From a virus, in IMG/VR virus record IMGVR_UViG_3300030103_003465, positions 1-46,762 of that record: a stretch of 46,762 bases of DNA. One strand, 5' to 3'. A model generated the notes under the pieces. It made no database searches. It was not told where the DNA came from and was given only the letters and a program-made list of their open reading frames with translations. Positions 4,196-46,762 of this stretch are shown here, piece after piece. Within the stretch, counting starts at the first letter, position 1. Every line of letters starts with the position of its first letter. The translations under genes and the position numbers were made by a program.

Positions 4196-5305
4196 ATGAC
4201 TTACACTCCCTTCACTGTTAAAATGACTGAAGAGCAAATCGTTGACAAACTAACAACCCTCTATGGATCAGAGGTTACTACAGCAGACATCAAAGCATTC
4301 TGCTCTATGAATGACATTCACTATAATACAGTAACCAGAAAATTACAGAAATACAAAGTATCTAAAGGTAAGTGGAATCTTGAAGTGACTCAAGAGGCAG
4401 TTGAGCAGATTGAGAAAACATTCAATGCTCCATCAGCATCAGTCGAAGAGAAGAACCTAGTTCCATCAAAAGATGACACATTCGTTCCTTTCGGTGGATT
4501 TAAGGATGTTAAAAAAATCATTCAGTCCAAACAATTCTATCCTGCATTTATCACAGGTCTATCAGGTAATGGTAAAACATTTTCTGTAGAGCAAGCATGT
4601 GCTCAACTTGGTAGAGAACTTATTCGTGTAAACATTACAATTGAAACAGATGAAGATGATCTTATTGGCGGTTTCCGTCTTCTTAATGGTGAAACCGTAT
4701 GGCACAATGGCCCAGTCATCGAAGCACTTGAACGAGGTGCAATCTTGCTCCTTGACGAAATCGACCTTGCCTCTAACAAAATTCTCTGCCTTCAGAGCGT
4801 CCTTGAGGGAAATGGAGTTTTCCTTAAGAAAGTTGGTAGATTCGTTAGACCAAGAGCAGGATTCAACGTATTCGCAACCGCAAATACTAAGGGTAAAGGT
4901 TCAGACGACGGACGCTTTATTGGAACTAACGTGCTCAATGAAGCATTCCTCGAAAGATTCCCTGTAACCTTTGAGCAATCATATCCTTCTTTAAAGATAG
5001 AAGAGAAGTTACTAACACTTCACTCTGCAAGTGTTGGTGTACATGATGATAAGTTTATCAAGAAACTTGTTGACTGGGCAGACATCATTCGTAAAACATT
5101 CTATGATGGTGGTATCGAAGAGATCATATCCACTCGTCGTCTTGTGCATATCATTCGTGCATTCTCTATCTTCAAAGATAAAGCAAAAGCAATCCAAGTT
5201 TGCACAAATCGTTTTGATGATGATACTAAGCAGTCATTCATGGAACTATATGACAAAGTAGATGCAGACTTTAACCTACCAGTTGACCAACAGGAAGGTG
5301 AGTGA
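4196..5305 (+). CDS. cobS: CobS-like AAA+ ATPase
   Basis: This 369-residue protein is the cobaltochelatase CobS-like AAA+ (MoxR family) ATPase widely found in cyanomyoviruses. Walker A GLSGNGKT is at 121-128 and Walker B ILLLDEIDLA at about 183-192. The sensor region FATANTKG and the ERF segment are present. An N-terminal domain of about 95 residues precedes the ATPase. In bacteria CobS and CobT power cobalt insertion by CobN in cobalamin synthesis. Here the VWA partner is upstream but no CobN is seen, so the phage pair may act on a host chelatase or another target. Confidence 0.9.
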   Translation: MTYTPFTVKMTEEQIVDKLTTLYGSEVTTADIKAFCSMNDIHYNTVTRKLQKYKVSKGKWNLEVTQEAVEQIEKTFNAPSASVEEKNLVPSKDDTFVPFGGFKDVKKIIQSKQFYPAFITGLSGNGKTFSVEQACAQLGRELIRVNITIETDEDDLIGGFRLLNGETVWHNGPVIEALERGAILLLDEIDLASNKILCLQSVLEGNGVFLKKVGRFVRPRAGFNVFATANTKGKGSDDGRFIGTNVLNEAFLERFPVTFEQSYPSLKIEEKLLTLHSASVGVHDDKFIKKLVDWADIIRKTFYDGGIEEIISTRRLVHIIRAFSIFKDKAKAIQVCTNRFDDDTKQSFMELYDKVDADFNLPVDQQEGE

Positions 5306-44188: not shown

Positions 44189-44458
44189 ATGTCAGAACAA
44201 CAGGACCATTTAACAAATCTTCTGAAGCAAAGACAGGATTTGATAGATGAGATAAATGGATTGCAGAATCAGGCAGCATCTAAGAGAGAATTACTTTTAA
44301 GAGCATCAGGAGCAATCGAATACTTACAACAAATCGGAGTAACACTTCCAGAAGAAGAGGCAGCAGCAGAAGGAGAACCAGAAGCACCAGCACCAGCAAT
44401 AGAGGGTGAGGTTGTAAACGCAGAGGGTGATATACCTGCACCTACACCAGAGGGTTGA
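44189..44458 (+). CDS. coiled-coil protein with acidic Ala/Pro-rich tail (89 aa)
   Basis: The first 50 residues form heptads (LTNLLKQRQDLIDEINGLQN... LLLRASGAIEYLQQIGV), then an acidic Glu/Ala/Pro tail. Similar small proteins occur in cyanophages and may be structural or chaperone-like. Its last codons are used by the -35 box of the next transcript. Confidence 0.6.
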   Translation: MSEQQDHLTNLLKQRQDLIDEINGLQNQAASKRELLLRASGAIEYLQQIGVTLPEEEAAAEGEPEAPAPAIEGEVVNAEGDIPAPTPEG

Positions 44459-44482
44459 CAAACATTTTTATAGTGCTATACT
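44455..44482 (+). promoter_or_regulatory. sigma70 promoter for the talC leader RNA (TTGACA-N16-TATACT)
   Basis: The perfect -35 overlaps the stop of the coiled-coil gene. The -10 is TATACT. Transcription would start near 44489 and run through a long noncoding region. Confidence 0.65.
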
Positions 44483-44488
44483 ATATTT

Positions 44489-44746
44489 GTAAGGGAAGGA
44501 CGCTTCTCTTGCAGGGAGTGACTGAATAAACTTACTGGCATATAGCTAGTTAAGGTGATGAGATACAGGTGGTGCTGCTACTCGCAAGAGTAGAATCGAC
44601 TTACCAGTCGGATCTCAGGCAGAGACGTTTTTCTAACTGTAGAAATGCCCGTCTCTTGTTGGTACACAGGAACCCAACCTCCCACCCCTATACACCTTAG
44701 ACCTAAGATGCAACTCATAAGAGTCGGGCAGATGGTCTTTTTTTTA
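44489..44746 (+). ncRNA. candidate structured RNA (about 255 nt) upstream of talC
   Basis: This stretch of more than 300 nt between genes holds consecutive stems. They are 44501-44507/44514-44520 (with G-U pairs), 44531-44539/44545-44554 (bulged), and an outer GAGAT 44560-44564 / ATCTC 44612-44616 enclosing two hairpins (44578-44593 with a GCAA tetraloop; 44597-44610). AGAGACG 44621-44627 / CGTCTCT 44650-44656 encloses TTTCTA-ACTG-TAGAAA. GTTGG/CCAAC is at 44658-44678. AGACC 44699-44703 / GGTCT 44734-44738 is followed by a T run. It could be an independent ncRNA or a regulatory leader. I match it to no named RNA family. Confidence 0.55.
44699..44746 (+). terminator. terminator-like element before talC
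   Basis: AGACC/GGTCT stem with an internal ACTC-ATAA-GAGT hairpin and a following run of eight or nine T. It lies about 30 nt before the talC ATG, so it could end the RNA or act as an attenuator. Confidence 0.5.
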
Positions 44747-44776
44747 TTATTAGCAAAAATGCATCTTCCAGAAGTT

Positions 44777-45439
44777 ATGAAAATTTTTCTAGACACTGCC
44801 GACACTGATATAATACGAAAGTATTACGGAACAGGTTTAATTGATGGTGTCACAACAAATCCCACATTAATAATGAGAAGTGGTAGAGATCCAGAGGATG
44901 TCTATAAAGAATTAGAAGATATTGGTTTAAGAGATATTAGCATGGAAGTCGTTGGTGATTCCAATCAAATGATCGAAGAAGGAATTAGATTAGCAACAAA
45001 GTTTGCTAAATCTGCAACAATTAAAGTTCCTTGCACACCTGATGGATTACTTGCATGTGCAGAGTTATCATGTAAAAACTTAATTAGAGTAAATGTAACT
45101 CTTATCTTTGATGTGGCACAAGCAATATTAGCAGCAAAAGCAGGAGCAGCATACATTTCACCATTTGTTGGAAGACTTGATGATAATTCGATTGCAGGAT
45201 TAGAACTCATTAAAAATATAGATGATGTTTTCAGAGTTCAATGTGTTCATAGAACAAAGATATTATCAGCATCAATTAGATATGTGAATAGTGTATCTCA
45301 ATCATTTGCAAATGGTGCTAACATTGTCACTATGCCACCATCAGTATTTGAGAAGATGTATAATCATGTATTGACAGATAAAGGATTGGAAATATTTGAT
45401 GAAGATTGGAAGAAAACACAAGATCTTATTAACAAATGA
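44777..45439 (+). CDS. talC: transaldolase (TalC type)
   Basis: The product has 220 residues from ATG 44777 (MKIFLDTADTDIIRKY), the usual start of this family. Signatures are DGVTTNPTLI, the Schiff-base Lys in ATIKVPCTPDG and AAYISPFVGRLDD. TalC moves a dihydroxyacetone unit between sugar phosphates in the pentose phosphate pathway. In cyanophages it is thought to boost NADPH and ribose for dNTPs. It probably shares a transcript with, or is regulated by, the structured region upstream. Confidence 0.95.
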   Translation: MKIFLDTADTDIIRKYYGTGLIDGVTTNPTLIMRSGRDPEDVYKELEDIGLRDISMEVVGDSNQMIEEGIRLATKFAKSATIKVPCTPDGLLACAELSCKNLIRVNVTLIFDVAQAILAAKAGAAYISPFVGRLDDNSIAGLELIKNIDDVFRVQCVHRTKILSASIRYVNSVSQSFANGANIVTMPPSVFEKMYNHVLTDKGLEIFDEDWKKTQDLINK

Positions 45440-45953: not shown

Positions 45954-46313
45954 ATGTCTATTAAATCTACAATCGCAGCAGTAGCTGCAACCCCACTTCT
46001 AATCTCTGGTGCTGCCTTTGCAGGTCCATACGTTAATTTAGAAGCAACTGGTTCTTATCCTGATGGTGCTTATTCCTCTGGTGGTCTTGAGGCACAAATC
46101 GGATACGAAGGTGCAACTGAAGGTGGAATTGGATGGTATGCATCTGTAGGTCCTAAAGTGACTCATACAGAAGTTGCTGACGAGTTCGGTGATGTGGAAA
46201 TCGCAGGATACCTAGGTGGATCATATGATAAGTTCTATGGTGAAATCTATGGAGTAACTAATGATGATGAAGTTGACTTTGCTGGAAAAATCGGAGCACG
46301 TTTCAAGTTCTAA
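45954..46313 (+). CDS. small outer-membrane-like beta-barrel protein, copy 2 (119 aa)
   Basis: It has a signal peptide (TIAAVAATPLLISGAAFA-GP) and strands that parallel copy 1: GSYPDGAYSSGGLEAQIGYE, GWYASVGPKVTHTEV, GYLGGSYDKFYGEIYG. It ends GARFKF with a terminal Phe. Both copies probably insert in or cross the host outer membrane, or coat the virion. It is followed by a strong terminator. Confidence 0.65.
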   Translation: MSIKSTIAAVAATPLLISGAAFAGPYVNLEATGSYPDGAYSSGGLEAQIGYEGATEGGIGWYASVGPKVTHTEVADEFGDVEIAGYLGGSYDKFYGEIYGVTNDDEVDFAGKIGARFKF

Positions 46314-46337
46314 ATATCTTTAGTTCGAGATGGATCA

Positions 46338-46366
46338 GACCTCTGCATTGCAGGGGTCTTTTTTTT
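46338..46366 (+). terminator. rho-independent terminator
   Basis: A 9-bp GACCTCTGC/GCAGGGGTC stem with one G-U pair and an ATT loop, followed by eight T, lies 25 nt after the second barrel-like gene. Confidence 0.9.
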
Positions 46367-46382
46367 CTGTTATCATAATTAT

Positions 46383-46762
46383 ATGAAAAGATTTATTTTA
46401 ACACTAATTGTTTTTGCATGTGCTGTCACATCAGCTGTGGCAAAGAAAAATTCTGACTCCAAAAGTATTAATTTTATAATTACTACTGAACCTAGTGCAT
46501 TAAATTGCATGGCATCTCAAAGGTGTAAAGATGGAGTCAAGACAATCAACGATATCTCTGATATTTCTAGCACTTATCCCGATAGTAATTTTGATAACAT
46601 TGCTGATGAATTCAACAGAATGCTTGATGCCCTTGATCGGATCGGAGTTAAAGTGTTTTTAGGTGATAAAAAATATTTTCCTACACAATATCGTGGTATA
46701 TACAGCACAAAAAGAAATACTTTTTATTTAAATAAAGGATATATGAGTAATCCAAACTCCCT
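46383..46762 (+). CDS. exported protein, 3' truncated by the window end
   Basis: ATG 46383 opens a frame to the last base. The product has a signal peptide (MKRFILTLIVFACAVTSAVA-KK), then TTEPSALNCMASQRCKDG with paired Cys, and a partly helical domain (NIADEFNRMLDALDRIGVKVF). The catalytic or binding part, if any, lies outside the window, so function is open. Confidence 0.65.
   Translation, partial: MKRFILTLIVFACAVTSAVAKKNSDSKSINFIITTEPSALNCMASQRCKDGVKTINDISDISSTYPDSNFDNIADEFNRMLDALDRIGVKVFLGDKKYFPTQYRGIYSTKRNTFYLNKGYMSNPNS

Follow-up and report, generated by a model that had tools for sequence, protein, structure and literature searches.

A cyanophage manA RNA with an uncatalogued 3′ hairpin upstream of talC, a candidate autonomous RNA gene

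The noncoding gap upstream of the transaldolase gene talC in the viral record IMGVR_UViG_3300030103_003465 is occupied by manA RNA (RF01745), an already known structured RNA, followed by a conserved and uncatalogued hairpin, here called el2. Comparison with related loci leads us to favor, with modest confidence, a reading in which this gap holds a phage ncRNA gene that is autonomous, el2 being its optional 3′ domain and talC an incidental neighbor. This reading ranks as the most likely, and a leader or attenuator, which ranks next, is a weaker candidate. Our statements about family membership, el2, the promoter, copy number, changes of context and the U-tract rule are drawn from comparing sequences. 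The window refers to the whole stretch of 46,762 nt that was analyzed, and the genes, promoter and RNA elements described at the gap lie on the plus strand.

The source contig is viral and is most closely related to T4-like cyanophages, for example P-TIM68 (~75% identity). On one side of the gap is an 89-amino acid ORF (44189–44458), for which a Pfam search returned no family, and on the other is talC (44777–45439; TAL_FSA, PF00923, E = 5.5e-48). The noncoding distance from stop codon to talC measures 318 nt, in agreement with the original prediction of a gap of more than 300 nt. A promoter overlapping the preceding stop had also been predicted and, indeed, the −35 box TTGACA (44455–44460) covers the TGA at 44456–44458. 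With a 16-nt spacer and the −10 box TATACT (44477–44482), which is preceded by TG, it forms a sigma70-type promoter (44455–44482) that matches the consensus at 11 of 12 positions and has an expected +1 near 44489. Besides this promoter of the RNA's own, no second promoter for talC is visible in the window. The talC gene has a possible earlier start, ATG 44759, that would add MHLPEV (44759–44779); because the window and the related locus L202 share the identical bases TGCATCTTCCAGAAGTTATG upstream of talC, the start usually assigned may lie 18 nt too far downstream. Elsewhere in the window, positions 46303–46398 match the Rfam model of the rimP leader below its threshold (22.8 versus 47 bits); this segment looks like an ordinary terminator hairpin with a U-tract.

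The main body of the gap is manA RNA and so is not undescribed, contrary to the possibility raised in the original prediction; that description holds only for the 3′ hairpin, el2, which has no Rfam family. The Rfam scan that the original prediction had named as a check against itself matched RF01745 over its full length (model positions 1–192; window 44493–44688), with a score of 187 bits (E = 8.6e-52; gathering cut-off 55.2 bits) and zero non-standard pairs in the alignment. This was the sole match in the whole window, which holds a single manA copy. The predicted fold (−82.5 kcal/mol, z = −2.7 relative to dinucleotide shuffles) opens with a first hairpin (P1), branches repeatedly in its body and closes with an end hairpin. 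P1 (44489–44512; Rfam model positions 1–16) has 10 bp in this copy and a GACG loop, and it is predicted to start at the expected +1. The closing helix, P2, joins GGGAG (44514–44518) to CUCCC (44679–44683); as helix 1 of the covariation alignment, it is 99.5% paired, with two pairs changed on both sides. Within the body, a predicted closed three-way unit (44559–44617; alignment helices 4–7) contains a GCAA-capped hairpin of the GNRA type, CTACTC-GCAA-GAGTAG (44578–44593). The prediction of six or more stems is thus borne out by the multi-branched fold, and both the GNRA hairpin and the three-way unit, which corresponds to the predicted multi-branch unit, are real.

Covariation in homologues, the original prediction's own test, is strong for the manA body and, as described below, for el2. 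Across 37 diverse relatives, aligned over a region of which P1 is not part, 95% of cells are paired and 29 of 49 pairs have changed on both sides. None of 500 shuffles scored as high, and sliding the partners destroyed the signal. For this family, Rfam curators list 48 pairs with significant covariation (PMC7779021). We conclude that the structure in the gap is far beyond chance. The RNA also contains long invariant unpaired stretches.

The predicted terminator-like end was found where expected, with the hairpin AGACC...GGTCT (44699–44738) followed by a U-tract (T8, 44738–44745); 31 nt separate this end from the talC ATG (44777), versus the 30 nt predicted. The prediction did not recognize that the end is an RNA element in its own right, conserved, uncatalogued and always found together with manA RNA. 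The 40-nt el2 begins ten nucleotides past the end of the manA model, and its sequence, AGACC-UAAGA-UGC-A-ACUC-AUAA-GAGU-CGG-GCA-GAU-GGUCU, includes an asymmetric internal loop. A simple terminator scan misses el2 because this loop interrupts the stem, and its best Rfam match was a snoRNA on the wrong strand (E = 1.2; 17 versus 52 bits). We compared 27 el2 sequences, selected from 55 distinct ones. The internal loop and its flanks are nearly invariant among them, whereas variation, with compensation, occurs in the apical stem, the loop and the outer basal pairs. Pairing amounts to 97%, and four pairs have changed on both sides; between 0 and 2 of 500 shuffles scored as high in the main measures. 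By eye only, we considered whether the internal loop resembles a kink-turn or a UAA/GAN motif.

A scan of viral contigs with el2 only, blind to manA, returned at least 119 stretches. Among the matches listed are 120 el2 copies, 86 of which pass a strict test for an upstream manA RNA, and a further 18 come after a manA variant recognizable from the sequence. For the other 16, a nearby contig end prevents a judgment, although 15 of them show a manA 3′ end. Every listed copy with enough upstream DNA thus follows manA RNA. The distance from manA to el2 is nearly constant. An el2 covariance model found exactly one copy, adjoining the manA RNA, in each of ten el2-positive contigs, zero copies in 14 complete isolate genomes and nothing in the manA loci classed as el2-negative. 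We conclude that el2 is an optional manA module; all copies in this analysis come from uncultured marine phages.

Several other proposals concerning el2 were rejected. In the window, the talC frame is open from 44645 onward, yet it is not conserved, since the apical loop varies in length by non-multiples of three between relatives, which argues against el2 as coding sequence. Weak BLAST matches in S-SM2, S-SCSM1 and S-SRM01 proved to be partial el2 sequences inside annotated CDSs, and the covariance model found nothing in S-SM2 or S-SCSM1. Most matches in a 16-nt pattern search of the contigs were due to chance. Pairing of GGGCA in el2 with the invariant UGCCC of manA could form 5 bp but is unsupported, because UGCCC is kept in RNAs that lack el2 and broken in divergent ones (L199, L237). 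The pairing of AAGAUGCA (44705–44712) with UGCAUCUU (44760–44767) in the window also occurs in L202 and is absent from other talC loci, making it a local feature. Associations between manA alignment columns and the presence of el2 were weak and probably phylogenetic.

A reading of el2 as a plain terminator only was likewise rejected, because the hairpin is equally conserved where the U-tract is missing. We classified the 3′ ends of 193 manA loci, which come from related viral contigs so that the counts are not independent. El2 with a U-tract ends 61 of them, el2 without a U-tract 47 and an ordinary terminator 22; a tRNA directly follows in 6, and the last 57 have none of these. The U-tract after el2 follows a rule: it occurs in 0 of 34 loci before gp32 versus 61 of 74 elsewhere (Fisher p = 1e-17, a value inflated by the relatedness of the contigs). 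Of the 13 exceptions, 12 have a tRNA-Gly, or a sequence resembling one, within a few bases downstream, and the last precedes another terminator. From these patterns, el2 plus its U-tract appears to behave as the RNA's terminator, lost where the next gene needs read-through. The retention of el2 where the U-tract has been lost points to a role for the hairpin in the RNA product, beyond termination alone.

The tRNA-Gly-like sequence, which is conserved and has a TCC anticodon, lies a few bases 3′ of el2 in L089, L122, L164, L204, L212 and L219, and at the same site in L223, L224, L257, L272 and L282. It has a good acceptor stem and anticodon arm and no canonical D-loop or T-loop (GCAAT replaces the T-loop), and ARAGORN does not call it. 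A canonical tRNA-Gly occupies this position in L226. Possibly, the sequence is a tRNA mimic.

The 3′ ends also bear on a cis-regulatory leader, in which manA would be a riboswitch-like sensor in a 5′ UTR and el2 plus its U-tract a conditional terminator for talC or other metabolic genes. We regard this as possible but doubtful. El2 with a U-tract stands before talC, phosphomannomutase (PMM), Hsp20 and isomerase genes, and in the window it carries U8 directly before talC; since no further promoter can be seen for talC, its transcription may rely on polymerase reading through el2, as in an attenuator. Against this, el2 is conserved even where termination is impossible, and the terminators found in its place are unrelated in sequence and distance, leaving no shared switch. 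Additionally, we found no compensation-backed alternative in which el2 pairs with the manA body. Between the RNA and the gene, a motif that we take to be the cyanophage late promoter occurs in 33 of 143 distinct spacers versus 7.3 expected, and it is concentrated by neighbor, with 8 of 8 and 4 of 4 spacers in two gene groups. A co-directional gene usually follows, as for a 5′ UTR, but terminators, tRNAs or these late-promoter-like motifs often intervene.

The promoter is as much a part of the conserved unit as the structure. Immediately before P1, at least 10 of 12 consensus matches were found in 157 of 161 distinct upstream sequences, a level reached by 3% of control windows from the same contigs. 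In 62 of 146 flanks, versus 0.7 expected from shuffled flanks, the −35 box lies within the terminator hairpin of the upstream gene, an arrangement that separates the RNA from upstream transcription. In many loci, among them L115, L248 and L288 (2945–2970), terminator and promoter are combined as GAGGG-TTGACA-CCCTC-T7, with the −35 box in the hairpin loop. A promoter together with a 3′ end, as in a stand-alone gene, was found in many loci but not all, a visible end (el2 with a U-tract, or an ordinary terminator) being present in 83 of 193. This constant attachment of the promoter, together with a structure that begins at +1, could also suit a plain strong-promoter leader whose structured 5′ end stabilizes or boosts the following mRNA, with no sensing and no action in trans. 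The commonest downstream neighbor is gp32 (52 of 193 loci), which encodes a highly needed protein, and no terminator intervenes there. Such a leader nonetheless seems unlikely to us, as the long invariant unpaired stretches far exceed the needs of a stabilizing hairpin, and a leader role would be negated at the many loci where a terminator follows the RNA directly.

Copy number and gene context argue further for an autonomous RNA. Exactly one manA RNA was found in each of 12 complete isolate phage genomes (172–252 kb) and one in each of 13 further viral contigs (30–210 kb). None of the 12 genomes has several copies before related genes, the recurrence associated with riboswitches, and this single copy argues that manA RNA is no switch repeated before several genes. 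Its surroundings differ from phage to phage. Among isolates, it lies after gp23 in S-SSM5, P-RSM4, P-HM1, MED4-213 and metaG-MbCM1, after pstS in P-SSM3 and P-SSM4, and after ferredoxin in P-SSM7; it lies before gp32 in P-HM2, before talC in P-RSM6, between regA and a gene annotated purL in P-SSM2, and before a small ORF upstream of talC in P-TIM68. Hypothetical proteins annotated over the RNA in P-HM2 (PHM2_011, PHM2_012; RNA at 4771–4969), S-SSM5 (SSSM5_127), P-HM1 (PHM1_121) and P-SSM4 (PSSM4_169.1) are probably spurious ORFs. Owing to the P-HM2 annotations, gene counts from published RNA-seq of P-HM2 infecting MED4 (PMC5082946) may include the RNA. Only 18 of the 193 loci have a talC start no more than 170 nt from the RNA; PMM, mannose-6-phosphate isomerase, Hsp20, PurS and 2OG oxygenase (Pfam assignments) are among the other neighbors, and elsewhere a tRNA-Asn, tRNA-Asp or tRNA-Gly follows. 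The specific tie to transaldolase that had been proposed is therefore unlikely.

These changing neighbors count against the leader reading, as does the single copy. Nearly all downstream genes lie on the strand of the RNA and they are often metabolic (talC, PMM, mannose-6-phosphate isomerase, PurS), which speaks for it. On a tree of the RNA, which is noisy because the RNA is short, the downstream gene changes 64 times, versus 85.5 (sd 2.5) with shuffled labels; the association for PMM neighbors is no better than random. This loose association of RNA sequence with many different downstream genes would also fit a recombination site, at which a conserved block is kept as a point of homologous exchange for swapping cargo genes. 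The compensatory changes in the stems and the attached promoter indicate selection at the RNA level, and such exchange may be a side effect and not a function; we consider this reading very improbable.

Also in favor of an autonomous phage gene, host genomes lack the RNA. In the family of the picocyanobacterial host, 1 of 300 genomes, a single-cell genome, has a manA RNA, and the match lies on a phage-like contig. In one Vibrionaceae genus, probably Photobacterium judging from published gammaproteobacterial cases, 6 of 52 genomes have one chromosomal manA RNA each (L313–L318). At the three of these loci that were looked at, the RNA lies between a phosphoglycerate-mutase-like gene and a gene for a small membrane protein, which starts ~240 nt from the RNA and is not a mannose gene.

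Weinberg et al. (2010) described manA RNA as a riboswitch candidate from cyanophages and labeled it cis-regulatory, with riboswitch function considered probable (PMC2864571). The RNA in the window agrees with that family in sequence, structure, length and host range among T4-like cyanophages. It differs in that the Rfam model stops at position 192 (window 44688), before el2, and in that copy number, promoter and 3′ contexts point to an RNA gene instead of the published label. A single copy beside differing genes, the RNA's own promoter, and the terminator, late-promoter-like motif or tRNA that often follows all argue against calling it cis-regulatory. Several observations pull the other way: at 57 of 193 loci no such element lies between the RNA and the gene; before gp32, the RNA must be an mRNA leader if no other promoter exists; the sugar-gene neighbors (talC, PMM, mannose-6-phosphate isomerase) are compatible with a metabolite switch; and the downstream genes are nearly all co-directional. 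Weighing both sides, we give roughly even credence to the more specific proposal that manA RNA is not a riboswitch and acts as an autonomous, single-copy ncRNA in trans, with el2 an optional 3′ domain, for example a protein-binding hairpin, that doubles as a terminator only where read-through is unwanted.

Under the autonomous-gene reading, host RNA polymerase would start at the RNA's own consensus promoter and make an RNA of ~250 nt, from 44489 to about 44745, that would fold into the manA structure and then el2. El2 and its U-tract would end the transcript before talC, a 3′ end that we place from the sequence; in relatives, the end would instead come from an ordinary terminator or, where a tRNA follows, probably from processing upstream of it. 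Before gp32 or a tRNA, where the U-tract is missing, transcription would read on. The RNA would be the conserved product, probably acting in trans, for example in an RNA–protein complex with el2 as an optional binding domain, and talC would be an incidental neighbor receiving read-through at most. Our literature search found no report of a manA transcript.

Other systems offer partial parallels. The wcaG and PhotoRC-II RNAs are likewise structured, cyanophage-borne and labeled cis-regulatory (PMC2864571, PMC9602691), but they are other families, and neither matches the window in the Rfam scan. A riboswitch with an intrinsic-terminator platform shares the order of structured domain, hairpin with U-tract, and gene; in contrast, manA has no consistent platform, its hairpin is conserved without the U-tract, and it is present in single copy with unrelated genes downstream. 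Stable RNAs 1 and 2 of phage T4 (RNA C and D) are linked to tRNA genes and have no known function. They resemble manA RNA, by analogy only, in being phage-encoded and tRNA-linked, as some manA RNAs lie 9–20 nt before a tRNA.

The phages that carry manA RNA infect Prochlorococcus and Synechococcus, and cultured carriers include P-HM2, P-SSM2, P-SSM4 and P-TIM68. Since 2010 the RNA has been classed as a probable riboswitch lacking a ligand, and the literature we found on it reports no ligand or mechanism. Should it prove to be an RNA gene, screens for ligands would be misdirected, and the question would become which host or phage factor manA RNA binds, for which el2 provides a compact, invariant element that could be used as bait.
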